Source of the DNA: Betaproteobacteria bacterium
Lineage (GTDB): Bacteria > Pseudomonadota > Gammaproteobacteria > Burkholderiales > Burkholderiaceae_D
DNA: 34,831 nt
Assembly (NCBI GenBank): GCA_903644065.1
Contig: CAHJXF010000005.1
Coordinates: forward strand, 1-34,831
Direction: 5' to 3'
The position numbers and the translations under genes are program-made. The notes under the pieces were generated by a model. The model did not search any database. It had not been told where the DNA came from and saw nothing but the letters and a program-made list of their open reading frames with translations. This document shows, piece after piece, positions 1,552 through 17,943 of the stretch. Position 1 is the stretch's first letter, and each line of letters starts with the position of its first letter.

Positions 1552-3021
1552 TCAGTTGAGCTGCGTGACGAACTTGGTCGTGAGGTACCCGTCGAAGGTC
1601 TCGGTCCCGCCCTCGCTGCCGTAGCCCGAGTCCTTGATGCCGCCGAACGGCGTCTCGGCGAGCGCCAGGCCGATGTGGTTGATCGACACCATGCCGGCCT
1701 CGAGCCCGTTCGCGATCGCCGTCGCGTTCTTCGTCGAACCGGTGAACGCGTAGGAGGCCAGGCCGAACGGCAGGCTATTGGCCTTCTTCAGCACCTCGTC
1801 GACGGTCTTGAAGCGGACCATCCCGGCGACCGGGCCGAACGGCTCCTCGGTCATCATGCGGCTGTCGTCGGGCAGGTCCGCGATCACGGTGGGCACGTAG
1901 AAGCTGCCGGCGTCGCCCATCGTCTCGCCGCCGGTCAGGATGCTCGCGCCGCGTTGATGCGCGTCCTCGATGAAGCCCGCGAACGGCGCGATGCGGCGCT
2001 TCTGCGCGAGCGGCCCCATGCGGTTGGCCGGGTCGCTGCCGGGCCCGACCCTGATGGCGCGGGTCTTCTCGACGAAGCGCGCGACGAAGCGGTCGTAGGC
2101 GCCTTCCTGCACGTAGAAGCGCGTCGGCGAGATGCACACCTGGCCGGCGTTGCGAAACTTGAAGCCGACCAGGATGTCGGCCGCGCGCTCGACGTCGGCG
2201 TCGTCGCAGACGATGACGGGCGCGTGGCCGCCGAGCTCCATCGTGCAGCGCTTCATCAATGCACCGGCCATCGCGTTCAGCTGCTTGCCGACCGCGACCG
2301 AGCCGGTGAACGACACCTTGCGGACGATCGGCGACTCGATCAGGTGCTTGGACACCTCGTGCGGCACGCCCCAGACGACGTTCAGGCAACCCGCGGGCAG
2401 GCCGGCGTCGTGGAACAGGCGGGCCAGCGCGACCACGCCGCTCGGCGCGTCCTCGGGTCCCTTCAGCACCATCGTGCAACCGGCCCCCAGCGCCGCGACG
2501 ACCTTGCGGATCGCCTGGTTGAACGGGAAGTTCCACGGCGTGAACGCGGCGCAGACGCCGATCGGCTCGCGTAGCACCAGCTGCCGCACGCCGTCCATCC
2601 GCGGCGGGATCACGCGGCCGTAGATGCGCCGGCATTCCTCGGCATGCCACTCGGCGTGCTCGGCGCACATCATCACCTCGCCGACCGCCTCGGCGATCGG
2701 TTTGCCCTGGTCGAGCGTCATGTTGGCGCCGATCGACTGCGCGCGGTCCCGGGCCAGCTCGGCGACCTTCCGCAGGACCTTGCTGCGCTCGGTGGGCGAG
2801 GTCTTCTTCCACGTCTCGAAGGCCCTTGCGGCGCTCTGCAGCGCCAGGTCGAGGTCTTCCGTCGTGGCATGCGGCAGGCTGCCGATGACGCGGTCGGTCG
2901 CCGGGTCGACGACGTCCTGTTCGCGGCGGCCTTCTCCCTTGACGAAGCGGCCGTCGATGTAGAGGGCGAGGTCCTCGTAGGCGGTGACGGGAGCGAGTGC
3001 GGCGCGGTCGGGTGCGTTCAT
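1552..3021 (-). CDS. NAD(P)-dependent aldehyde dehydrogenase, succinate-semialdehyde type
   Basis: 489 aa. The aldehyde dehydrogenase signature is complete: PWNFP with N164, K187 in the cofactor pocket, ELGG with general base E262, and GQVC with nucleophile C296. Overall it reads like the GabD/succinate-semialdehyde branch. It is the last gene of the leftward benzoate block, 382 bp after livF. The box pathway produces 3,4-dehydroadipyl-CoA semialdehyde, which needs a dehydrogenase, so this enzyme may fill that role by position. Its sequence does not resemble the dedicated box-cluster dehydrogenases I know, so a plain short-chain semialdehyde substrate is equally possible. The ATG at 3021 has an AAAGGA ribosome site about 8 bases upstream; upstream in-frame ATGs would add low-complexity sequence foreign to the family. 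Confidence 0.85.
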
Positions 3022-4920: not shown

Positions 4921-6002
4921 GCGCGGGCGCGCCTCGGACCGAACAGACCGATCAAGCCGCGCGGCAAGGCCGCGACGAAGCCGATGATCGCGAGTCCCAG
5001 CATCAGCTGCCAGTGCTTGGCGAACGAGCCGAACAACGCGTCCGACTGAAACACTTCCTGCAGCGCCATGAACGCCAATGCGCCGAGCATCGCGCCGCGC
5101 AGGTGGCCGACGCCGCCCAGGATGATCATCAGCAGCACGGCGCCGCTCTGGTTCCACGCCAGCAGTTCCGGATTGACGGCGCCGTCCTTCATCGCGAACA
5201 GCACGCCGGCGAGCGACGCGATCATCGCGCCGATCACGAAGGCGCCGAGCTTGTACGGATAGGTCGCGAAGCCCGCGGCGCGCATGCGCTGCTCGTTGGA
5301 CTTGATGCCGGCCAGCGCCCGCCCGTAGCGACTGCGCAGCAGCACGGCCAGGAAGGCGAACGTGGCGACGAGCGTCGCGAGCGTCGCGTAATAGACGCCG
5401 TGTCCGTGCTCGAAGTCGACCAGTGTCGTGGAGCCGAGGGTCAGCGCCGGCTTGTAGTAGAGATAGATGCCGTCGCTGCCGCCGCCGAACGACGTGTCGT
5501 GGAAGACGAAGAACGCCATCTGCGCGAAGGCCAGCGTGATCATGATGAAATACACCCCGCGCGTTCGCAGCGACAGCGCGCCGACCAGCGCTGCATAGCC
5601 GCCGGCGGCGAGCAACGCGACGGGCACGACCAGCCACAGGCTGGCCGCGTCGACCCGCGCGGTGACCAGGGCGGTCGCGTAGGCGCCGATGCCGAAGAAC
5701 GCCGCTTGGCCGAACGACACGAGGCCGGTCTGGCCGACCAGCAGCTCGAGGCTGAGCGCGAAGATCGCGTAGATCATCACCTTGCCGACCAGGTCCGTGT
5801 AGAAGCTCGAGCCGAAAGCCGGGAACAGCGCCAGCACGACGAAGGCCACGACGACCGGCATCGCCTTCCATCGCGCGGACCGCGTCGTCGCGGCGCCGCT
5901 GTCGCTCGCCGCTGCGGTCGACGGCGCGGTCGACGGCTCGGTCGCGGATGTCGCCGTCGATGGCGCGGTCGCGGATGTCGCGGTCGACGTGGCCGCCATC
6001 AT
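4917..6002 (-). CDS. livM: ABC importer permease LivM
   Basis: 361 aa inner-membrane permease with about eight to ten hydrophobic segments starting near residue 48 (MPVVVAFVVLALFPAF). The conserved family core ELLVGQTGLVSFGQAAFFGIGAY is recognisable near residues 85-107. It pairs with LivH to form the translocation channel. The N-terminal 45 residues are unusual: a low-complexity Ala/Ser/Thr/Pro cytoplasmic tail encoded by a 27-bp tandem duplication (repeat TATSATxPS). The start is a double ATG (6002 or 5999); the first overlaps the livH stop by four bases and is preferred. Confidence 0.92.
   Translation of the reverse strand: MMAATSTATSATAPSTATSATEPSTAPSTAAASDSGAATTRSARWKAMPVVVAFVVLALFPAFGSSFYTDLVGKVMIYAIFALSLELLVGQTGLVSFGQAAFFGIGAYATALVTARVDAASLWLVVPVALLAAGGYAALVGALSLRTRGVYFIMITLAFAQMAFFVFHDTSFGGGSDGIYLYYKPALTLGSTTLVDFEHGHGVYYATLATLVATFAFLAVLLRSRYGRALAGIKSNEQRMRAAGFATYPYKLGAFVIGAMIASLAGVLFAMKDGAVNPELLAWNQSGAVLLMIILGGVGHLRGAMLGALAFMALQEVFQSDALFGSFAKHWQLMLGLAIIGFVAALPRGLIGLFGPRRARA
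5935..5988. repeat. 27-bp tandem duplication in the livM 5' end
   Basis: Two adjacent 27-bp copies (5935-5961 and 5962-5988) differing at about three positions, each containing CGGTCGCGGATGTCGC. On the coding strand they give the peptide TATSATxPS twice in the LivM N-terminal tail. The length is a multiple of three, so copy-number changes keep the frame. Confidence 0.8.
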
Positions 6003-6880
6003 CCGGCCTTGAAGAGGCCTTCGGGCTTCCACAGCAGCATGGCGGCCATCAGCAGGTACACCAGCATGCCGGCCAGCGACGGGAACAGCACCTTGCCGAA
6101 GGTGTCGACCACGCCGACCAGCAGCGCCGCGACGAAGGCGCCGCGGATCGAGCCGATGCCGCCGATCACGACGACCACGAAGCAGATGATCAGCACCTGG
6201 TTGCCCATGCCGGGGTACACCGACGACACCGGCGCGGCGACCAGGCCGGCGAGCGCGGCGAGACCGACGCCGATCGCGAAGACCACGCGGTACAGGAAGC
6301 GGATCGGGATGCCGAGCGCCTGCACCATCTCGCGGTTGGTAGCGCCCGCGCGGATGCGCATGCCGAGGCGCGTCTTCGTCATCACGGCCCACAAGGCCAG
6401 CGCGACGACGCCGCACACCGCCGAGATGAACAGCCGATAGACCGGATAGGTCATCACGTCGGACAGCGGAAAGCTGCCGGACAGCCAGCCGGGCATCGCG
6501 ACGCCGTGCACGTCGTCGCCGACCAGGATGCTGCGCAGTTCCTCGAACACGAGGATCAGTCCATACGTCATCAACACCTGCTGGAGGTGCTCGCGTTCAT
6601 ACAGGTAGCTGAAGAACGCCCACTCGAGCAGGTAGCCGAACGCCACCGCGAGCGCGACGCCCACCGCGAGCGTCGCGAAGAAGCCGCCTCCCAGCCAGGT
6701 ATCGACCACGGGTGCGATCGCGTACGCGAGGTACGCGCCCAGCATGTAGAAGCTGCCGTGAGCGAGGTTGATCACCCCCATGATGCCGAAGATCAGCGTG
6801 AGGCCGGATGCGACGAGGAACAGCAGCAGCCCGTATTGCACGGCGTTCAGGCACTGGATCAGGAAGGTGGGAAAGTCCAT
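5999..6880 (-). CDS. livH: ABC importer permease LivH
   Basis: 293 aa polytopic inner-membrane protein, first permease of the HAAT importer. The N-terminal half carries the family stretch GLTLIFGIMGVINLAHG near residues 26-42, and the C-terminal half VVVIGGIGSIRGA near 235-247. The length is normal for LivH. It is 364 bp downstream of the substrate-binding protein gene livK, separated by a dense block of hairpin repeats, while its 3' end overlaps livM by four bases. That layout suggests the binding protein is expressed at a different level from the membrane components. Confidence 0.93.
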   Translation of the reverse strand: MDFPTFLIQCLNAVQYGLLLFLVASGLTLIFGIMGVINLAHGSFYMLGAYLAYAIAPVVDTWLGGGFFATLAVGVALAVAFGYLLEWAFFSYLYEREHLQQVLMTYGLILVFEELRSILVGDDVHGVAMPGWLSGSFPLSDVMTYPVYRLFISAVCGVVALALWAVMTKTRLGMRIRAGATNREMVQALGIPIRFLYRVVFAIGVGLAALAGLVAAPVSSVYPGMGNQVLIICFVVVVIGGIGSIRGAFVAALLVGVVDTFGKVLFPSLAGMLVYLLMAAMLLWKPEGLFKAG

Positions 6881-7244: not shown

Positions 7245-8423
7245 TCAGCTCCTGCAGCCCCGCGCCGGATCGCTCAGCCCCTTGATCGCGATGCCGTCGA
7301 GCTTGTTCTCCTTGCCGACCACCTTCCGCAGGTAGATGTCCTGCACCGGGTTGTGCGCGCGGCTGATCGTGAACGTGCCGCGCGGGCTGTCGATCTTGGC
7401 CTTCTCGATCGCGGCCGCGAACTCGGGCTTCTTCGACACGTCGCCGCCGGTCGCCTTCAGGCCGATCGCCAGCATCTGCGCCGCGTCGTAGCCCTGCACT
7501 GCGTACACGTCGGGCTGCAGCTTGTAGGTCTTGGCGTAGGCGAGGCGGAACGCGTTGTCGCGCGGCGTGTTCAGGCCGTCGGCGTAGTGCAGCGTGGTGT
7601 ACATGCCCTGCGCCGCATCGCCCTGGGCGTCGAGCGTGCCGTCGGTGAGGAAGCCCGGGCCGTACAGCGGGATGCTGCGGTTGAGGCCCGCGGCCGCGTA
7701 GTCCTTGACGAACTTGACCGCGCCGCCGCCGGCGAAGAACGCGTACACGACGTCGGGCCTGGTCGCGGCGATCTCGGTCAGGAGGGCCTGGAACTCGACG
7801 CCGGGGAAAGGCAGGTTGAGCGCCTTCACGACCGTGCCGCCGCCCTTCTCGAACGACTCCTTGAAGCCGTTGGTCGATTCGGTACCGGCCGCGTAGTTCC
7901 ACGTGATGGTGACGGCCTTCTTCGCCCCCTTCTTGGCCGCGACCTCGCCCATCGCGTAGGCCGGCTGCCAATTCGAGAACGAGCTGCGGAAGATGTTGAC
8001 GCCGCACATCGGCCCGGTGATCGCGTCGGCGCCGCCGTTCGGCACGATCAGCAACGTGTTGCTGTCCTTGGCGGCCTTGGCCATCGCGGTGGCGACACCC
8101 GAGTGCACGGTGCCGACCAGCACGTCGACGTTGTCGCGCTTGATCAGCTTGTTGACGTTGTCGGTGGCCTTCGACGGCTCGGATTCGTCGTCGACCTTGA
8201 CGTACTCGATCTCGCGTCCGCCGAGCTTGCCGCCCTGCTCGTCGACGTAGAGGCGAAAGCCGTTCTCGATCGCGTTGCCGAGCGCCGCGTAGGTCCCAGT
8301 GTACGGCAGCATGAAGCCCACCTTGACCTTGGCGGCCTGGGCGGACGCCGGCGTCGTCGTCACGGCCAGCGCGGCCGCGCCGGTCAGCAATGCGGCGCTC
8401 ATCGCGAAGGTACGTCGTTGCAT
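7245..8423 (-). CDS. livK: ABC importer periplasmic substrate-binding protein (LivK type)
   Basis: 392 aa. A cleavable signal peptide is clear: MQRRTFAMSAALLTG... with a cleavage site after TTPASA (about residue 28). The mature protein starts KVKVGFMLPYTGTYAALG, the opening strand of the type I periplasmic binding fold (Peripla_BP_6), and continues to a normal length. It should deliver the ligand to LivHMGF. Lying between benzoate-CoA ligase and the permeases, the ligand is probably benzoate or another aromatic acid rather than an amino acid; this is inference. The start at 8423 has AGGGAG about 5 bases upstream and lies 13 bp after the hydrolase stop. Confidence 0.9.
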   Translation of the reverse strand: MQRRTFAMSAALLTGAAALAVTTTPASAQAAKVKVGFMLPYTGTYAALGNAIENGFRLYVDEQGGKLGGREIEYVKVDDESEPSKATDNVNKLIKRDNVDVLVGTVHSGVATAMAKAAKDSNTLLIVPNGGADAITGPMCGVNIFRSSFSNWQPAYAMGEVAAKKGAKKAVTITWNYAAGTESTNGFKESFEKGGGTVVKALNLPFPGVEFQALLTEIAATRPDVVYAFFAGGGAVKFVKDYAAAGLNRSIPLYGPGFLTDGTLDAQGDAAQGMYTTLHYADGLNTPRDNAFRLAYAKTYKLQPDVYAVQGYDAAQMLAIGLKATGGDVSKKPEFAAAIEKAKIDSPRGTFTISRAHNPVQDIYLRKVVGKENKLDGIAIKGLSDPARGCRS

Positions 8424-8436
8424 GGAGTCTCCCTGT

Positions 8437-9309
8437 TCAGTGGATGTCGATGGGTCGATCCTCGAGGGCCGTGCCACCGGCGCCCGGCGCATGCGCCGCG
8501 ACGAAGTGTACGGTCGCTTCGATCACGGCGGTGGGCGAATCGCGATGCGGCGAGTGGCCGCAGCCGTGGAGCTTGAGCAGCGTGGTGTCGGTCACCGCGT
8601 CGGCGATGCCGTCGATGTGCGCCATCGTCCCGTACCGGTCGTCGTATCCCTGGATGGCCAGCACCGGGCAGGCGATGTCGGCCAGCAGCGCGTGGATGTC
8701 GAAGAAGCGGAACGGCTCGGAGAGCCACACGTCGTTCCAGCCGTGAAAGGCCGAGTCGACGTCGTCGTGATGGCGCGCCAGCTTGCGGCGCAGGTCGCCG
8801 TGGAGATAGGCGTCGCGCGCGAGCGCGATGCTGTCGATGCCGCCCTGCTCGACATCGAGGTGCGGCGCCATGACGACGAGGCCGGCGACGCGGTCGGGCC
8901 AGGTCGCGGCGTGGATCAGCGCGATCGAGCCGCCGTCGCTGTGGCCGAACAGCCACGGCGGTTCGGCGACGACGTCCACCGCGAGCGCCTCGAACAACGC
9001 CGGCAACACGTCGCGCGCCTGGCGATGAAGGAAGTCGGCCTGCCATCGCTCCGCATGCGGGCGCGGCGTCGACCGGCCGTAGCCGGGCCGCGAATACACC
9101 AGCCCGCGATAGCCGCCTGCCGCGCACAGTCGGTCCGGAAAGTCCTTCCACATCGCGACGGAGCCGAGCCCCTCGTGCAGGAAGACGAGCAGCGGCGCGG
9201 CGCGCGGCCCGTCGATCCGGCGATATTCGAGGTCGAGCGACTGTCCGTCGACGCGCAGCGCGACGATGCTCGAGCCGGCATCGCGCGGCCGGTGATCCGG
9301 CGCGCTCAT
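8437..9309 (-). CDS. Alpha/beta-hydrolase of the benzoate operon
   Basis: 290 aa cytoplasmic alpha/beta-hydrolase. The nucleophile elbow is GHSDG with S124, the acid is probably D223 or D224 in QGYDDRYG, and the histidine is H252 in GCGHSPH. The oxyanion region is FLHEGLGS near 43-50. The ATG at 9309 overlaps the benzoate-CoA ligase stop by four bases, so the two proteins are made together. Box-type clusters often contain a hydrolase of this kind, described as a lactonase or thioesterase; a role in clearing dead-end CoA thioesters or lactones of the epoxide pathway is inference. Esterase activity on a benzoate ester is the alternative. Confidence 0.85.
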   Translation of the reverse strand: MSAPDHRPRDAGSSIVALRVDGQSLDLEYRRIDGPRAAPLLVFLHEGLGSVAMWKDFPDRLCAAGGYRGLVYSRPGYGRSTPRPHAERWQADFLHRQARDVLPALFEALAVDVVAEPPWLFGHSDGGSIALIHAATWPDRVAGLVVMAPHLDVEQGGIDSIALARDAYLHGDLRRKLARHHDDVDSAFHGWNDVWLSEPFRFFDIHALLADIACPVLAIQGYDDRYGTMAHIDGIADAVTDTTLLKLHGCGHSPHRDSPTAVIEATVHFVAAHAPGAGGTALEDRPIDIH

Positions 9310-10910
9310 GCGGCCGCGGGACTCGATCGCTCGCGCAACCGGAAGCGCTGGATCTTTCCCGTCGCGGTCTTCGGCAGCTCGCCGACGAATTCGATCTCGC
9401 GCGGGTATTTCACCGGCGCCAGACGGGCCTTCACGAAGGCCTTGAGCTCGTCCGAGAAGGCGTCCGAGCCGTTCTCGCCGTTCTTCAGCACGACATAGGC
9501 CTTCGTGCGCGTCAGTCCGTTCTCGTCCGGCACGCCGATCACCGCCGCCTCCAGTACCGCGACGTGTTCCATCAAGGTCGACTCGACCTCGAACGGCGAG
9601 ACGTACTGGCCGCTCACCTTCAGCATGTCGTCGCTGCGGCCGGCGTAGATGTAGTAGCCGTCGACGTCGCGCAGGTACTTGTCGCCGCTGCGGGTCCAGG
9701 CGCCCTGGAAGGTCTCGCGACTCTTCTGCCGGTCGGACCAGTACATCAGCGCCGCGCTCGGGCCCTGGATGAACAGGTCGCCGACGACGTCGGGACCGTC
9801 GATGACCCGCCCGAGTTCGTCGCGCAGTTCGACCGCGTAGCCGTCGACCGGCTTGCCGGTCGTGCCGTAGCGCACGTCGCCCGGTCGGTTCGACAGGAAC
9901 ACGTGCAGCATCTCGGTGGAACCGATGCCATCGATGATGTCGCAGCCGAAGTGACGCGTGAAGCGTTCGCCGACGTCGCGCGGCAGCGCCTCGCCGGCCG
10001 ACGAACACATGCGCAGCGCCACGTCGTCGCGCGGCGGCAGGGCGGGCGAGGCCAGCATGCCGGCGAAGCCCGTGGGCGCGCCGAAGAACACGGTCGGTCG
10101 CAGACGTCGGCCATCGCCCGCGTCGACGCCGCGCAGCCGCGCGAAGCAGGCCTCCGCGGTCGGACGGCCGGCCATCAGCACCACCGTCGCGCCGACCGTC
10201 AGCGGAAAGGTCAGGCCGTTGCCGAGGCCGTAGGCGAAGAACAGCTTGGCGGCGGAGAAAGTGACGTCGTCCTCGGTCAGGCCGAGGACCGACCGGGCGT
10301 AGAGCTCGGCGGTCCAGTACAGGCTGCCCTGCGCATGCACGGTGCCTTTGGGGCGGCCGGTCGACCCCGACGAATAGAGCCAGAAGGCGGGGTCGTCGGC
10401 CCGCGTGTCGCAGGCGCCGGCCATCGGCTCGTGGGCGGCGATCCACTCGTCGAACCCGGCCGTGTCGTCGCCCGGACGAGAGACCACGACGTTCGCGATC
10501 TCGTGGTCCGCGTCGACCATCGCCGCGCGCAGCACCGGCAGCAGTCTGTCCGAGACCAGCGCCGCCTGCGACCGGCTGTGCGAAAGGATGTAGGCGTAGT
10601 CGGTCGCCGTCAGCAGGGTGTTGATCGCGACCGGAACGACGCCGGCGTACAACGCGCCGAGGAAGATCGCGGGCCAGTCGTTGCAGTCGTGCATCAGCAG
10701 CAGCACGCGATCCTCGCGACGGACGCCCGACGCACGGAGCGCCGTGGCGGCGCATCGCGCCCGTCGCTCCAGGGCGGCGTAGGTCAACGCGCCGTCGTCG
10801 TCGACATAGGCGATCTTGTCGGCACGCGACTGGTTCAGCGCGAACACGTGTCCGGCGAAGTTGAATCGCTCGTCCGGCGGCGACACGACCGTCTCGGTCA
10901 TCCCGGTCAT
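9306..10910 (-). CDS. bclA: Benzoate-CoA ligase (EC 6.2.1.25)
   Basis: 534 aa acyl-adenylate-forming enzyme that activates benzoate with ATP and CoA to benzoyl-CoA, the entry step of the box pathway. The AMP-binding loop SSGSTGRPKG is at 180-189, and the C-terminal catalytic lysine is about K519 in TATGKIQR. The middle (KLFFAYGLGNGLTFPL, then VFFGAPTGFAGML) is typical of benzoate-CoA ligases. The ATG at 10910 is chosen because GAGAGGA lies 5 bases upstream and it gives the family length; ATG 10901 is also possible, and ATG 10988 would add 26 residues with no good ribosome site. First gene of the leftward operon, divergent from boxR. Confidence 0.92.
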   Translation of the reverse strand: MTGMTETVVSPPDERFNFAGHVFALNQSRADKIAYVDDDGALTYAALERRARCAATALRASGVRREDRVLLLMHDCNDWPAIFLGALYAGVVPVAINTLLTATDYAYILSHSRSQAALVSDRLLPVLRAAMVDADHEIANVVVSRPGDDTAGFDEWIAAHEPMAGACDTRADDPAFWLYSSGSTGRPKGTVHAQGSLYWTAELYARSVLGLTEDDVTFSAAKLFFAYGLGNGLTFPLTVGATVVLMAGRPTAEACFARLRGVDAGDGRRLRPTVFFGAPTGFAGMLASPALPPRDDVALRMCSSAGEALPRDVGERFTRHFGCDIIDGIGSTEMLHVFLSNRPGDVRYGTTGKPVDGYAVELRDELGRVIDGPDVVGDLFIQGPSAALMYWSDRQKSRETFQGAWTRSGDKYLRDVDGYYIYAGRSDDMLKVSGQYVSPFEVESTLMEHVAVLEAAVIGVPDENGLTRTKAYVVLKNGENGSDAFSDELKAFVKARLAPVKYPREIEFVGELPKTATGKIQRFRLRERSSPAAA

Positions 10911-11015
10911 CCCGGTCCTCTCGATCGTCGACCCTCGCCACGCGGCAGGCGGATGCGGCTGGCCGGTCTCGTCGACGCACGTCGGCATGTTGAATAATTC
11001 ATGTGGATGCCGGAA

Positions 11016-11060
11016 ACTTAAGGGCGCCGTGGAACAGCGTCAAGCAGGATATTGCATATC
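11016..11060 (-). promoter_or_regulatory. Predicted bclA promoter with BoxR-type operator
   Basis: On the minus strand TTGACG (11043-11038) is followed after 16 bases by TTAAGT (11021-11016), a good -35 with a weak -10, about 105 bp before the bclA start. The block TGCAATATCCTGC (11056-11044) overlaps the -35 edge and reads TGCA-N6-TGCT, one base from the TGCA-N6-TGCA site known for BzdR. The perfect palindrome GATAT-TGC-ATATC (11048-11060) covers the same bases. Repression of the uptake/activation operon by BoxR in the absence of benzoyl-CoA is inferred. Confidence 0.55.
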
Positions 11061-11127
11061 GAGGGTTTGTCCGGACGTGCGGTTCGCACGCACTGCGGCT
11101 TCCTTCGCGACCGGGAAGCACGACACG

Positions 11128-12066
11128 ATGCGAGACGAAGGATCACCGTCCGGCGACGATGGCAGCGCCGGGGAGAGCGGTGGTCGCGATCCGTTCCTGG
11201 TCGCGCTCGGCGAGCGCATGCGTTCGTTGCGCGCCCGAAAAGGCATGACACGGCGTTCGCTCGCCGTCGCATCGGCGGTGTCGGAACGCCATCTGGCCAA
11301 CCTGGAACTCGGGGTCGGCAACGCGTCGATCCTGGTGCTGCGGCAGGTCGCGGTCGCGCTCGAATGCCAGCCGGCCGACCTACTTGGCGAGTACATCGAT
11401 TCGCCCGAATGGCTGTTGATCCGCGACCTGTTGCGCGGCCGCGGGGACGACGACCTGCGGCGCGCCCGCGCGGCGCTGGCCGACCTGTTCGGGACCGCGG
11501 CGCGTCCCGAGGCGCGCCGCCGCCGCATTGCGCTGGTGGGCTTGCGCGGCGCGGGCAAGTCCACGCTGGGACGGCGCCTCGCGACCGATCTCGGCGTGAC
11601 CTTCGTCGAGCTCAATCGCGACATCGAGCGCGTCGCCGGTTACGGTCTCGCGGAAATCCACAACCTGCTCGGCCCGACCGCCTATCGCCGCTACGAGCGA
11701 CGTGCGCTCGAAGAGGCGCTGCAGCGCCATCCCGACGCGGTGCTGGCCACGCCGGGCGGCATCGTCTCCGATCCGGCGACCTTCAACCTGCTGCTCGCGA
11801 ACTGCTACACGGTGTGGCTCACCGCGTCGCCCGGCGAACACATGCAGCGCGTCGTGGCCCAGGGCGACACGCGACCGATGGCCGGCAACGCCGAAGCCAT
11901 GGACGACCTGAAGCGCATCCTCGCCGGACGCGCCGCGTTCTATCGCAAGGCGGATCTGAGCGTGGACACGTCCGGCCTGTCGCTCGACGACGCCTACGAA
12001 CGCCTGGTTGCGTCGCTGTCCGCCGCGCCGGACCGCCCGATCGCCGCCCCGGTGCGCATGCAATAA
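11128..12066 (+). CDS. boxR: BoxR/BzdR-family transcriptional regulator
   Basis: 312 aa two-domain regulator. Residues about 23-90 form an XRE-type helix-turn-helix (GERMRSLRARKGMTRRSLA...). Residues 131 to the end are a shikimate-kinase-like domain with Walker A GLRGAGKST at 138-146. This fusion is the hallmark of BzdR and BoxR, where the kinase-like domain binds benzoyl-CoA and the protein represses the benzoate genes until the inducer appears. A linker with an extra helical segment joins the domains. The ATG at 11128 follows a GGGA element; the stop codon lies inside the first TGCA-N6-TGCA operator of the downstream boxC promoter. Same strand as boxCBA, divergent from bclA. Confidence 0.93.
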   Translation: MRDEGSPSGDDGSAGESGGRDPFLVALGERMRSLRARKGMTRRSLAVASAVSERHLANLELGVGNASILVLRQVAVALECQPADLLGEYIDSPEWLLIRDLLRGRGDDDLRRARAALADLFGTAARPEARRRRIALVGLRGAGKSTLGRRLATDLGVTFVELNRDIERVAGYGLAEIHNLLGPTAYRRYERRALEEALQRHPDAVLATPGGIVSDPATFNLLLANCYTVWLTASPGEHMQRVVAQGDTRPMAGNAEAMDDLKRILAGRAAFYRKADLSVDTSGLSLDDAYERLVASLSAAPDRPIAAPVRMQ

Positions 12067-12072
12067 AATGCA
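12059..12072. promoter_or_regulatory. BoxR operator 1
   Basis: TGCA-ATAAAA-TGCA, an exact match to the TGCA-N6-TGCA site described for BzdR. It overlaps the boxR stop codon and ends 7 bases before the predicted boxC -35 box. Confidence 0.7.
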
Positions 12073-12079
12073 ATTTCGC

Positions 12080-12111
12080 TTGACGTAGCCGACGCAGACC
12101 TGCAATATCTT
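12080..12111 (+). promoter_or_regulatory. Predicted boxC promoter
   Basis: TTGACG at 12080-12085 is a near-consensus -35. The -10 is not sharp: CAATAT at the 17-bp spacing (12103-12108) or TATCTT at 12106-12111. Either choice overlaps operator 2, so a repressor bound there would block RNA polymerase. It would drive boxC-boxB-boxA. Confidence 0.5.
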
Positions 12112-12114
12112 GCC
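12101..12114. promoter_or_regulatory. BoxR operator 2
   Basis: TGCA-ATATCT-TGCC, one base from TGCA-N6-TGCA, placed over the predicted -10 region. Its extended sequence TGCAATATCTTGCCTGACA matches 16 of 19 positions of the bclA promoter block read on the minus strand. Confidence 0.6.
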
Positions 12115-12128
12115 TGACATCGCTGTGA

Positions 12129-12142
12129 TGCATCATCGTGCA
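12129..12142. promoter_or_regulatory. BoxR operator 3
   Basis: TGCA-TCATCG-TGCA, an exact match to TGCA-N6-TGCA, 26 bases before the boxC start and probably downstream of the transcription start. Its centre is 28 bp from operator 2 and 70 bp from operator 1. Confidence 0.65.
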
Positions 12143-12168
12143 GACAGTTCGCACTCACCGGAGAGTCC

Positions 12169-13932
12169 ATGGAAGCCGATCAAGTCCTCGATCCGTCGAT
12201 CGTCATCAATCCGGACGTGTCGCCCCATCCGGTTCCGTCGGAAGCGGTGCGGGAGGCGGGTCGGGCGGCGGTGAGCGCTGCGACGGGCGCGGTCGACTAC
12301 CGCATCGAGCCGTCGCGCTACCGGCACTGGTCGATGACGTTCGACGGTCCGATCGCGACGCTCAGCCTCGACATCGACGAGGATGCCGGCATCCGTCCCG
12401 GCTACAAGCTGAAGCTCAACAGCTACGACCTCGGGGTCGACATCGAGCTGAACGATGCGATCAACCGCATCCGTTTCGAGCATCCCGAAGTGCGCGCCGT
12501 GGTCATGACCAGCCGGAAGGACCGCATCTTCTGCTCGGGCGCCAACATCTTCATGCTCGGCGTGTCGTCGCACTCGTGGAAGGTCAACTTCTGCAAATTC
12601 ACCAACGAGACGCGCAATGGACTCGAGGACTCCAGCAAGTACTCCGGTCTCAAGTTCCTCGCGGCGGTCAACGGCGCCTGCGCGGGCGGCGGCTATGAGC
12701 TGGCGCTGGCCTGCGACGAGATCCTGCTGGTCGACGATCGGTCGTCGGCCGTGAGCCTGCCCGAGGTGCCGCTGCTCGGCGTCCTGCCCGGCACCGGCGG
12801 ATTGACCCGCGTGACCGACAAGCGTCACGTGCGCCACGACCTGGCCGACGTGTTCTGCACGACCACGGAAGGCGTGCGCGGCGCGCGCGCCAAGGAGTGG
12901 CGGCTGGTCGACGACATCGCCAAGCCGGCCGTCTTCGCGCAGAAGGTCGCCGAGCGGGCGGCAGCGCTGGCCGCGGTCAGCGACCGTCCCGTCGATGGAC
13001 TGCCGGTGTTGCTGACGCCGATCGAGCGAGCGATCGACGACGCCGGCCTGCACTACGCGCACGTGGACGTCCTCGTCGATCGCGGCAGACGCGTCGCGAC
13101 GTTCACGATCGCGGCGCCGTCCGGCGACCAGCCCACGACGGTCGACGCGATCGTCGGCGCGGGCGCGACCTGGTGGCCGCTGGCGATGGCGCGCGAGCTC
13201 GACGACGCGATCCTGTCGATGCGCACCAGCGAGCTCGACATCGGAACCTGGGTGCTGAAGACCGTCGGCGATCCGGTCGCGGTGCTGGCGTGCGACGCGG
13301 CGCTGCTGGCTCATCGCGATCACTGGTTCGTCCGCGAGACGCTCGGCTTCATTCGCCGCACGCTATCCCGCCTCGACGTGTCGTCGCGCACGTTGTTCGC
13401 GCTGGTCGAGGAAGGTTCGTGCTTCGCCGGCACGCTGCTCGAGTTGGCGCTGGCTTGCGACCGCACCTACATGCTGGCGCTGCCGGACGCACCGGAGCGT
13501 GCGCCGTCGCTGGTCGTCGGCGAGGTGAACTTCGGCCTGTATCCGATGGCGACCGATCAGTCGCGGCTCGCACGACGCTTCTACGAGGAAGAGCCGGCCC
13601 TCGCCGCGGTACGCGCGACCATCGGCACGCCGCTCGACGGCGATGCCGCGATGAAGGTCGGCCTCGTGACGATGGCGCCCGACGACATCGACTGGGCCGA
13701 CGAGGTGCGCCTGGCGCTCGAGGAACGCTCGGCGATGTCGCCCGACGCGTTGACCGGCATGGAAGCCAACCTGCGCTTCAACGGCCGCGAGACGATGGCG
13801 ACGCGGGTGTTCGGCCGCCTGACCGCGTGGCAGAACTGGATCTTCAACCGGCCGAACGCGGTCGGCGAGAAGGGCGCGCTGAAGCTGTACGGCAAGGGCG
13901 AAAAGGCGCAGTTCGACTGGAAGCGGGTCTGA
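12169..13932 (+). CDS. boxC: 2,3-epoxybenzoyl-CoA dihydrolase BoxC (EC 4.1.2.44)
   Basis: 587 aa, crotonase superfamily. BoxC converts 2,3-epoxybenzoyl-CoA plus water to 3,4-dehydroadipyl-CoA semialdehyde and formate, opening the ring without O2. The first crotonase half shows the oxyanion-hole segment IFCSGANIFML (120-130) and NGACAGGGYELALACDE (168-184); a degenerate second half repeats the pattern at about 412-435 (EEGSCFAGTLLELALACDR). The double-length architecture is specific for BoxC compared with ordinary enoyl-CoA hydratases of about 260 aa. C122, E177 and E199 are candidate active-site residues by motif. The ATG at 12169 follows GGAGAG. First gene after the operator-rich promoter; boxB follows 149 bp later. 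Confidence 0.95.
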   Translation: MEADQVLDPSIVINPDVSPHPVPSEAVREAGRAAVSAATGAVDYRIEPSRYRHWSMTFDGPIATLSLDIDEDAGIRPGYKLKLNSYDLGVDIELNDAINRIRFEHPEVRAVVMTSRKDRIFCSGANIFMLGVSSHSWKVNFCKFTNETRNGLEDSSKYSGLKFLAAVNGACAGGGYELALACDEILLVDDRSSAVSLPEVPLLGVLPGTGGLTRVTDKRHVRHDLADVFCTTTEGVRGARAKEWRLVDDIAKPAVFAQKVAERAAALAAVSDRPVDGLPVLLTPIERAIDDAGLHYAHVDVLVDRGRRVATFTIAAPSGDQPTTVDAIVGAGATWWPLAMARELDDAILSMRTSELDIGTWVLKTVGDPVAVLACDAALLAHRDHWFVRETLGFIRRTLSRLDVSSRTLFALVEEGSCFAGTLLELALACDRTYMLALPDAPERAPSLVVGEVNFGLYPMATDQSRLARRFYEEEPALAAVRATIGTPLDGDAAMKVGLVTMAPDDIDWADEVRLALEERSAMSPDALTGMEANLRFNGRETMATRVFGRLTAWQNWIFNRPNAVGEKGALKLYGKGEKAQFDWKRV

Positions 13933-14081: not shown

Positions 14082-15509
14082 ATGTCCACGATCGACTACG
14101 CCACCAAGATTCCCAACAACGTCAACCTGGCCGAGGACAAGACGCTGCAGCGTGCGCTCGAGCACTGGCAGCCCGAGTTCCTCAACTGGTGGCAGGACAT
14201 GGGTCCCGACGGCTCGCACGACCACGACGTCTACCTGCGGACGGCGACCTCGGTCGACTCGGCCGGCTGGGCGCAGTTCGGCCACGTCAAGATGCCCGAG
14301 TACCGCTGGGGCATCTTCCTGAACCCGGCCGTCGCGGACAAGAAGATCGGCTTCGGCGAGAACCTGGGCCGCGACGCCTGGCAGGAAGTGCCGGGCGAGC
14401 ATCGCGCCAACCTGCGGCGCATCATCGTGACGCAGGGCGACACCGAGCCGGCGTCGGTCGAGCAGCAGCGCCACCTCGGCCTCACCGCGCCGTCCCAGTA
14501 CGACCTGCGCAACCTGTTCCAGATCAACGTCGAGGAGGGGCGACACCTGTGGGCCATGGTGTACCTGCTGCATCGCTACTTCGGCCGCGACGGTCGCGAG
14601 GAAGCCGAGGCGCTGCTGCATCGCAATTCGGGCGACCAGGACAACCCGCGCATCCTCGGCGCGTTCAACGAAAAGACGCCCGACTGGCTGGCGTTCTACA
14701 TGTTCACGTACTTCACCGACCGCGACGGCAAGTTCCAGTTGTCGGCGCTGGCCGAGAGCGCGTTCGATCCGCTGGCCCGCACCACCAAGTTCATGCTGAC
14801 CGAGGAAGCGCATCACATGTTCGTCGGCGAGTCGGGCATCTCGCGGGTCATCAATCGCACCTGCCAGGTGATGAACGAGCTCAAGACCGACGACCCGATG
14901 AAGATCCGCGCCGCCGGCGTGGTCGACATGGGCACGCTGCAGCGCTACCTCAACTTCCACTACTCGGTGACGATCGATTTGTTCGGGGCCGACGAGTCGA
15001 GCAACGCCGCGATCTTCTACAACTCGGGCCTGAAGGGCCGCTACGAGGAGACCAAACGCGACGACGACCATCGGCTGCAGGGCCAGACCTACAAGGTGCT
15101 GGGCGTGCAGGACGGACGCCTCGTCGAGCGCGAGGTGCCGATGCTCAACGCGCTCAACGAAGTGCTGCGCGACGATTACATCAAGGACTCGATCGGCGGC
15201 GTCAACCGCTGGAACAAGGTGATCGAGAAGGCGGGCCTGCCGCATCGCCTCGTGGTGCCGCACAAGGCGTTCAACCGGAAGATCGGCGCGTTGTCGAACG
15301 CGAAGGTCAGTCCGGACGGACAGGTCGTCGGCGAAGCGGAGTGGGCGGCCCGCGAGCGCGACTGGCTGCCGACGGCGGAAGACCGCGCGTTCGTCGCTTC
15401 GCTGATGGGCTGCGTCGCCGAGCCGGGCAAGTTCGCCGGCTGGATCGCGCCGCCGCCGATGGGCATCAACAAGCAGGCGGTGGACTTCGAATACGTTCGG
15501 TTCAATTGA
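14082..15509 (+). CDS. boxB: Benzoyl-CoA 2,3-epoxidase BoxB (EC 1.14.13.208)
   Basis: 475 aa class I di-iron epoxidase, the oxygenase component that converts benzoyl-CoA to 2,3-epoxybenzoyl-CoA with O2 and electrons from BoxA. The di-iron ligands are visible as E122, E152-x2-H155 (VEEGRH), D213 and E242-x2-H245 (TEEAHH). As I recall the Azoarcus BoxB ligands, all sit at a constant offset of two residues from those. The length is normal. The ATG at 14082 follows AAAGAGAG. REPIN-like inverted repeats lie on both sides of the gene, suggesting that its mRNA level or stability is set apart from boxC and boxA. Confidence 0.96.
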
Positions 15510-15595: not shown

Positions 15596-15600
15596 ATGGA

Positions 15601-16872
15601 ATGAGCGCCAACGCCGAAGTACTGAAGCAGCACCTGATCGATCCCGAGATCTGCATTCGCTGCAACACCTGCGAAGAGACCTGTCCGGTCGACGCGATCA
15701 CGCACAACGACGACAACTATGTCGTCGATGCGACGAAATGCAATTTCTGCATGGCCTGCATCTCGCCTTGCCCCACCGGCTCCATCGACAACTGGCGCAC
15801 GGTGCTGAAGCCGGCGGCGTACAGCGTCGACGAACAGTTCACATGGGACGAGTTGCCGGCCGAGAAGGAAGTCGACGGTGGATTGCTTGAGGCCGAGGCG
15901 TTGACGCCCATCGACGCCGCCGAGGCGGCCGACGACGAGAAGGCGCTCGAGCTCGATTCGTCGCAGCTGGCCGACCCGTTGTCGGGCGCGCAGGTGCCGC
16001 CGTGGTCCGCGTCGCATCCCTACGTCAACCTGTACGGCCACAAGGCGCCGGTGACCGCCACGGTGGCCGGCAACTTCCGCGTGACGGCGCTCGGCACCGA
16101 CAGCGACACGCATCACATCGTGCTCGACTTCGGCAGCACGCCGTTTCCGGTGCTCGAGGGTCAGTCGATCGGCATCCTGCCGCCGGGCGTCGACGCACGC
16201 GGCAAGGCCCATCACGCGCGCCAATATTCCATCGCCAGTCCGCGCGACGGCGAGCGCTCGGGCTACAACAACGTCTCGCTGACCGTCAAGCGCGTGACGA
16301 CCGACTACGACGGTCGGGCGGTGCGCGGCGTCGCGTCCAACTACGTCTGCGACCTGAAGAAGGGCGACGAAGTGCGCATCATCGGACCGTTCGGCACCAG
16401 CTTCCTGATGCCGAATCATCCGAACGCGAACCTGATCATGGTGTGCACCGGCACCGGCAGCGCGCCGATGCGGGCGATGACCGAGCGGCGTCGTCGTCGC
16501 GTGGACCTGAACGAGGGCGGCAAGCTGATGCTGTTCTTCGGCGCGCGCACGCAAAGGGAACTGCCGTACTTCGGGCCGCTGATGAACCTGCCGAAGGAAT
16601 TCATCGACATCAACTTCGCGTTCTCGCGCGAAGAGGGCCACGTCGACGGCGCGCCGAAGCGCTACGTGCAGCACCTGATGCGCGAGCGATCCGCGGACGT
16701 CGGCGCGCTGCTGCAGGACGACAACACCTATTTCTACGTCTGCGGGCTCAAGGGAATGGAAGCCGGCGTCCTCGATGCGTTGAAGGACATCTGCGTCGGA
16801 CGGTCCATCGACTGGCCGGCACTGCATGCGCAGATGAAGCGCGAGGGGCGGCTGCACTTCGAGACCTACTGA
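15601..16872 (+). CDS. boxA: Benzoyl-CoA epoxidase reductase component BoxA
   Basis: 423 aa NADPH-dependent flavoprotein that feeds electrons to BoxB. Two [4Fe-4S] clusters are encoded by C18-x2-C21-x2-C24-x3-C28 and C47-x2-C50-x2-C53-x3-C57. An acidic linker (about 85-128) leads to a ferredoxin-NADP reductase module with RQYS (207-210) for FAD and CTGTGSAPM (282-290) for NADPH; the C-terminus ends FETY as expected for this fold. The start at 15601 is chosen from the family N-terminus; a TTG at 15583 in frame would lie inside the REPIN. No clear Shine-Dalgarno exists, since the repeat arm ends at 15595. Last gene of the box operon. Confidence 0.95.
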
Positions 16873-17050: not shown

Positions 17051-17284
17051 TCAGCGTCGTGCGCTCCGGGACGGCGCTTCGTACTCGAACACCGCCTCCA
17101 GGGGCTGCCCGAACGCATAGGCGATCCGGAACGCCAGCTCCAGCGACGGGGCGTACTTGCGCGATTCGATCGCGATGATGGTCTGGCGCGTGACGCCGAC
17201 CTCGTCGGCCAAGGTCTGCTGGGTCATCTCGCCCGCGTCGAAGCGCAGACGCCGGATGTTGTTGACGATCGGCGGCCCGGTCAC
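17051..17284 (-). CDS. Small XRE-family transcriptional regulator
   Basis: 77 aa from a GTG start at 17284, essentially one helix-turn-helix: [20 protein letters not shown], then [20 protein letters not shown]. This matches the short YozG-like repressors of about 65-75 aa that sit beside small membrane proteins. The GTG overlaps the stop of the preceding membrane gene by four bases (GTGA), so they are co-translated. An ATG at 17308 would lengthen it by eight residues that do not belong to the domain. It probably autoregulates the promoter at 17769-17797, which has a palindrome between the -35 and -10. Target genes elsewhere are unknown. Confidence 0.85.
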
Positions 17285-17742
17285 GCCGGCATGCCCTTGC
17301 GATAGCACACCAACTGCGTCAGTTGCCGAAGCGCTTCGGCGATCACCACGCTGATGAACGCGAACTGACTCGCGACCGGATAGGTCGGCACCGCGATCGT
17401 CCCGTCCACGCGAGGCGGCGTCAGGAAGCCGAGCACCGCCTGGGTGCTGATGGCGCCGAGCAGGAGGATGACGAGCGCGACGTAGGCGACCCGCATGCCG
17501 TAGCGGTCGATCGCCCGGTCCCGCTCGTCGCCTGGCAGGCAGACGTGCAGCGACCGCGTCAGTCCTTCGGCGACGGCGATCACGATCAGGAACGCGATCG
17601 ATGCAGCCACGAAGGCGACGCTGAGCGCGTGCGCGACCGGCTCTCGAGCGGCGAACACGCGGAAAACGTAGGCCACGTACGGCACGAAAACGATGAGGAT
17701 CGACGCGAGACGGATCCAGGCGCTCAATTCACGAGGGGACAT
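17281..17742 (-). CDS. Four-helix membrane protein paired with an XRE regulator
   Basis: 153 aa integral membrane protein with four hydrophobic segments (about residues 9-27, 42-62, 87-107 and 127-147) and short loops; the loop after the second segment contains [17 protein letters not shown]. No enzymatic motif is visible. It is the first gene of a two-gene unit with the XRE regulator. Such pairs are widespread, and the membrane partner is thought to sense or to tether the regulator, but the function is not established. The ATG at 17742 has GGAG 8 bases upstream; the earlier in-frame ATG at 17811 would lie upstream of the predicted promoter. Confidence 0.75.
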
Positions 17743-17768
17743 GACGGCTCCGATGAAGACAGGCACGC

Positions 17769-17797
17769 AATGTAATGTATAGCATACACGGTGTAAA
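17769..17797 (-). promoter_or_regulatory. Promoter with embedded palindromic operator
   Basis: On the minus strand TTTACA (17797-17792), 17 bases, then TACATT (17774-17769). The perfect palindrome TGTAT-AGC-ATACA (17776-17788) lies entirely in the spacer between the hexamers, a classical place for a small XRE repressor. The region is AT-rich compared with the window. The leader to the membrane-protein ATG is about 20 bases. Confidence 0.6.
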
Positions 17798-17943
17798 GCA
17801 AAAATGACCAAAAGTTCGTTGAAGCGGATATTCGCGTCGAACGAAACTTGCCGCTGCCGCTGCCGCCGCTGCCGCCGGACTCCCCGCGCACGAGCGGACG
17901 CGTTGCGCTAAGGTAGCGGCCCGTCCAGTCTCCCGTTTCCTGC

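Follow-up and report, generated by a model that had tools for sequence, protein, structure and literature searches.

Genes of the box locus

The window, by which is meant the whole stretch of 34,831 nucleotides analysed here, carries boxA, boxB, boxC, and bclA of the box cluster, and each of these genes scores above the cutoff of its family model. The benzoate-CoA ligase gene bclA (9306-10901, minus strand; TIGR02262, 751 bits against a cutoff of 375) lies on one side of the regulator gene boxR (11128-12066, plus strand). On the other side, boxC (12169-13932; TIGR03222, 956.7 bits, cutoff 712) is the first gene 3' of boxR, at the end of a spacer of ~105 bp, and is followed by boxB (14082-15509; TIGR03225, 880.7 bits, cutoff 499) and boxA (15598-16872; TIGR03224, 725.2 bits, cutoff 459), all on the plus strand. 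On the transport side of bclA, the ORFs at 7245-8492 and 5999-6880 are separated by a gap of about 365 bp.

The boxR product, a repressor of the type that joins an XRE helix-turn-helix domain (HTH_3, 32-85) to a shikimate-kinase-like domain (SKI, 140-294), passes the BzdR/BoxR family model (NF006015, titled 'anaerobic benzoate catabolism transcriptional regulator'; 420.8 bits, cutoff 204) and is the sole full-length match within its own genome. Its gene adjoins bclA, boxC, boxB, and boxA, as expected of BoxR rather than BzdR. The 20 solved-structure matches listed for this regulator were shikimate kinases and related enzymes, and helix-turn-helix regulators, none of them named BoxR or BzdR.

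The sequence was compared with a genus sample of three genomes including the window's own (G000, G001, and G002), in which the loci of the two relatives are designated L004 and L005; boxR is present in all three. Because residue 30 (L005) or 38 (L004) of the long bclA ORF is the first to align with these relatives, bclA probably starts at 10901 or 10910 and not at 10988, which would give it a leader of roughly 100 nt. A BoxD-like query (E 1e-30) was unmatched in all three genus genomes, each of which is a draft of 180 to 478 contigs; among the control genomes the same query was matched in three of five, with two boxR-bearing genomes unmatched. An aldehyde dehydrogenase encoded at 1552-3018 of the window could stand in for BoxD.

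Candidate operators and promoters

An earlier sequence-only reading of the window had pointed to four sites of the type TGCA-N6-TGCA beside boxR, and all four were recovered at the positions it gave. The first, TGCAATATCCTGCT (11056-11043, minus strand, one mismatch), is a candidate BoxR-type operator at the bclA promoter. The other three precede boxC: candidate operator 1, TGCAATAAAATGCA (12059-12072, exact), includes the boxR stop codon (TAA, 12064-12066), as that reading had proposed; candidate operator 2, TGCAATATCTTGCC (12101-12114, plus strand, one mismatch), lies over the inferred boxC -10; and candidate operator 3, TGCATCATCGTGCA (12129-12142, exact), lies 28 bp from operator 2 in the inferred boxC leader. 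Putative TGCA-repeat operators, mainly of the form TGCA-N6-TGCA, are therefore present at both target promoters.

Simple scans of positions 10900-12200 for sigma-70 promoters and terminators called neither, so that the two promoters rest on conservation. The inferred bclA promoter (11015-11043, minus strand) would comprise a -35 TTGACG (11043-11038), a 17-nt spacer, and a -10 TAAGTT (11020-11015), and its hexamers are identical in all three genus genomes. The inferred boxC promoter (12080-12108, plus strand) would comprise a -35 TTGACG (12080-12085), a 17-nt spacer, and a -10 CAATAT (12103-12108), and the form TTGACR-N17-CARTAT is found in all three genomes. The bclA site had been described as overlapping the -35; since the two have a single base in common, the site abuts the hexamer more than it overlaps it. 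It had also been proposed that the sites tie both transcription units into one switch. A BoxR-family regulator encoded between the promoters and BoxR-type operators at each of them agree with that proposal, but there is no single divergent control region: the promoters face apart with about 1 kb between them and boxR in the middle.

Occurrence of the dyad outside the genus

Matches to BoxR (E 1e-60) were found in 49 of 245 family genomes, the window's own included. Of the 57 loci outside the genus, 56 were used to count upstream sites; L019 was left out because it holds too little upstream DNA. It should be noted that L019, a boxR-boxC pair, comes from a record titled as a Klebsiella pneumoniae MAG, for which an error of binning or naming seems likely. 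TGCA-N6-TGCA with at most one mismatch occurred within 300 bp before the aligned boxR start in 48 of the 56 loci, leaving eight without an upstream site, and in the boxR coding DNA of only two. The control dyads ACGT, GTAC, and CATG were found in the same 300 bp in 5, 1, and 17 of the 56 loci, respectively. Among the spacings, six was the richest upstream of boxR (76 sites across the 56 loci).

Downstream of boxR the picture is more divided. In 37 of the 56 loci boxC lies within 400 bp of the boxR stop, with boxC residue 1 extrapolated from the alignment. In 18 of these 37 a site fell within the stretch searched, which ran from 25 bp ahead of the boxR stop to 130 bp beyond it; the controls gave 0, 2, and 9, and the CATG dyad is thus itself raised, both here and upstream. 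The remaining 19 had no site in the searched stretch. In eight of the 37 the gap from boxR to boxC exceeds 130 bp, so that these were searched in part only. The gap to the extrapolated boxC residue 1 was negative in 13 loci, and tight packing of the two genes tends to go without operators between them, since 10 of these 13 carried no site; such closely packed genes may be co-transcribed. These counts suggest two arrangements among the relatives, one in which boxC has operators after boxR and one in which boxR and boxC lie close together without them. Sites paired 26-33 bp apart after boxR recur (e.g., L006, L012, L026, L031, and L044), and in two of the 37 loci (L010 and L028) a site lies over the boxR stop codon.

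A position weight matrix (PWM) built from the 76 upstream sites of the 56 loci, all of them outside the genus, placed the four candidate sites first to fourth in the window: operator 1 (23.9), the bclA site (22.1), operator 2 (18.9), and operator 3 (18.1). The next position scored 16.1.

Conservation within the genus

On the bclA side, TGCA-N6-TGCT runs into TTGACG, 17 nt, and TAAGTT in all three genus genomes, with TGCAATATAGTGCT occupying the position of the bclA site in both other members. After boxR, TGCAATAAAGTGCA spans the stop codon in both other members, and a dyad with the boxR stop codon inside it is therefore common to all three; the gap from this dyad to the boxC -35 is 7 nt here and 8 nt in both relatives. 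The bclA site and operator 1 scored 22.5 to 22.9 in both relatives. The BoxR C-terminus reads MQ in all three genus genomes versus none of the 55 outside loci with a readable stop, which suggests that operator 1, rather than the protein, fixes the last BoxR codons in this genus.

The two inner sites are less constant. The counterparts of operator 2 carry two mismatches apiece, and their scores are 14.3 (L005) and no more than 7 (L004); they lie 43 bp from operator 1 in each relative, compared with 42 bp in the window. An exact copy of operator 3 is present in L005. L004 lacks one: its sequence can be read at the expected position, which is closely followed by an A-rich stretch and a run of N. 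The expectation that TGCA half-sites would be kept at the same positions in related clusters is thus borne out at the level of sequence for the two strong sites, the bclA site and operator 1, whose positions are unchanged in both relatives; operator 2 is kept only with two mismatches, and operator 3 is kept in one of the two.

This unevenness could mean that BoxR binds only the bclA site and operator 1, operators 2 and 3 being lesser or chance sites, as the two highest PWM scores in the window and their persistence in the relatives would allow. Operators 2 and 3 nonetheless rank directly behind them in the window, and their 28-bp separation falls within that of the site pairs that recur after boxR outside the genus; a two-site arrangement therefore appears unlikely, though it deserves consideration. 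That all four sites serve as operators is the reading preferred here.

The sequence-only reading had further proposed a 19-bp block as the shared unit, to be sought in relatives. The 19-mers it quoted from the bclA and boxC regions are accurate and share 16 of their 19 positions; of 120 Markov shuffles, whose best matches averaged 12.9, one did as well. The corresponding pair of 19-mers shares 12 of 19 positions in one of the other genus members and 14 of 19 in the other, which rules out the 19-bp block as the operator unit; the 14-bp dyad core alone is kept. A pattern shaped after the sites had been seen, TGCANTATNNTGCW, has a single exact match, at the bclA site, in each of the three genomes of the genus, and with one mismatch is found at nine distinct places in G000, four of them within the boxR locus; given how the pattern was shaped, this result is illustrative only. 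The earlier interpretation is thus partly supported: its outline holds, and two of its details, the 19-bp unit and the single divergent region, do not.

A further conserved element is the dyad GCATGTTGAATAATTCA in the bclA leader (10985-11001), whose 17 bp are identical in all three genus genomes. Its other matches at up to three mismatches in these genomes comprise four places, each with three mismatches and all in G001, and its BoxR PWM score is weak (8.2).

Comparison with chance expectation

Counting sites in the window is by itself weak evidence, as it indicates mild over-representation: 17 matches with at most one mismatch were observed versus 9.85 expected, and 1 of 100 shuffles reached 17. 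As 13 of these 17 lie outside the four-site set, the resemblance to operators could in principle reflect chance or coding constraint, with no regulation involved. However, the exact dyad is rare in the genome and yet clustered here: the 3.71-Mb genome holds 17 copies, the boxR-boxC spacer alone accounting for two, and simple arithmetic from the genome-wide rate gives an expectation of about 5e-4 in 105 bp (the reversed control pattern occurs 58 times in the same genome). The independently built PWM, which ranks the four sites at the top of the window, found a mean of 0.01 positions at 18.1 or above in 100 Markov-1 random windows. Coding constraint likewise fits poorly with operator 1, which is kept beyond the stop codon in the genus and encodes a protein ending seen in none of the outside loci with a readable stop. 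An origin without regulation is scarcely conceivable on this evidence; the significance comes from clustering and motif fit, by which the four sites are far beyond chance.

Proposed control of bclA and boxCBA

Judged by sequence and by analogy, the four sites are very probably operators of the BoxR encoded between them, a benzoyl-CoA-responsive repressor that would control both bclA and boxCBA. Without benzoyl-CoA, BoxR dimers would occupy a single operator bordering the bclA -35 and three operators at boxC, situated upstream of the -35, over the -10, and in the leader; bound at both promoters, BoxR would keep polymerase off. Basal BclA would then make benzoyl-CoA, which would release BoxR, so that boxCBA and, on the far side of boxR, the ligase (perhaps with transport) would turn on together. 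The sites, their conservation, their motif fit, and the family of the regulator come from this analysis itself, while binding, repression, benzoyl-CoA as the inducer, and cooperativity are carried over from the studied relatives BoxR and BzdR. By analogy with BzdR, operators 2 and 3 would stand in the way of polymerase, and operator 1 may contribute to de-repression as OR2 and OR3, which lie upstream in the BzdR system, are reported to do. We infer that bclA, with one operator placed at the edge of its promoter, may be leaky enough to supply the ligase that forms the inducer.

Other regulators recognise TGCA as well. The available portion of one account describes TGCA-containing boxes for XylS and, seemingly, BenR (PMC6678401), so that an activator of the XylS/BenR type, for example, might bind these sites in place of BoxR. 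The XylS box given there is TGCA(N6)GGNTA and not a symmetric dyad (PMC6678401), whereas the symmetric dyad accompanies boxR in most of the outside loci, and the gene between the sites of the window belongs to the BoxR family. Binding by such a regulator is accordingly highly improbable, and BoxR remains the favoured ligand of the sites. It is doubtful, too, that BoxR bound at both ends closes boxR into a ~1-kb repression loop, or blocks read-through into boxC from the operator at the stop codon; if either were true, boxR's own transcription would be part of the switch, and the conserved dyad of the bclA leader could be a further element of it.

Comparison with known systems

The sites are real and conserved, but a control system of this kind is already described in related bacteria. 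The published text at hand presents BoxR and BzdR as repressors that bind TGCA repeats spaced by 1, 6, or 15, with ATGCACTATAGTGCAT as the main motif and with sites that rarely occur singly and are often separated by several turns (PMC6449761); both regulators are also treated in PMC10803450, PMC4424350, and PMC3602430. In its available parts, the account of the BoxR regulon of Betaproteobacteria (Suvorova and Gelfand, 2019; PMC6449761) agrees with the window in the regulator family, the TGCA-N6-TGCA motif, and the multiplicity of sites. The published cluster is likewise divergent: boxR is grouped with boxCBA, and the opposite arm holds bclA together with lactonase and transporter genes. The window differs in that its strongest site holds the boxR stop codon, a feature that may be known in that regulon too, and in the unmatched BoxD query in its genus, which is represented by drafts.

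The PN promoter of Azoarcus, as far as described in the accessible part of PMC6678401, also has three BzdR operator regions at one promoter, with TGCA(N6)TGCA in OR2 and OR3 and with one region covering the core promoter as well as the start site; there, benzoyl-CoA de-represses. PN differs from the promoters in the window in that it serves the anaerobic bzd operon and includes a site for AcpR. Its OR1 carries other TGCA arrangements, one N15 and one short palindrome, and OR2 (-83 to -63) and OR3 (-146 to -126) are more distant upstream (PMC6678401) than operator 1 would be, measured from the inferred boxC start. The locus adds a well-supported case of BoxR control in a genus known here from draft genomes, and it offers a clean case for testing whether induction depends on an additional upstream operator, as it reportedly does for BzdR.

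Other repeats and promoter-like elements

Several observations concern TGCA repeats of other kinds or at other places. Upstream of boxR outside the genus, a smaller peak was seen at a spacing of 18, with 16 exact TGCA-N18-TGCA repeats and 50 with at most one mismatch across the 56 loci; the published spacings are 1, 6, and 15. Inspection by eye shows that in L025 and L032 the dyad continues into TTGCGT-N17-CATAAT, which is likely to be a boxR promoter. In the window, a TGCA-like repeat at 17766-17784 lies just upstream of the likely ATG of the ORF at 17281-17811 and contains the fifth- and sixth-best PWM positions; the fifth-best (17766-17779) is perhaps, from its position, a promoter site of a different system.
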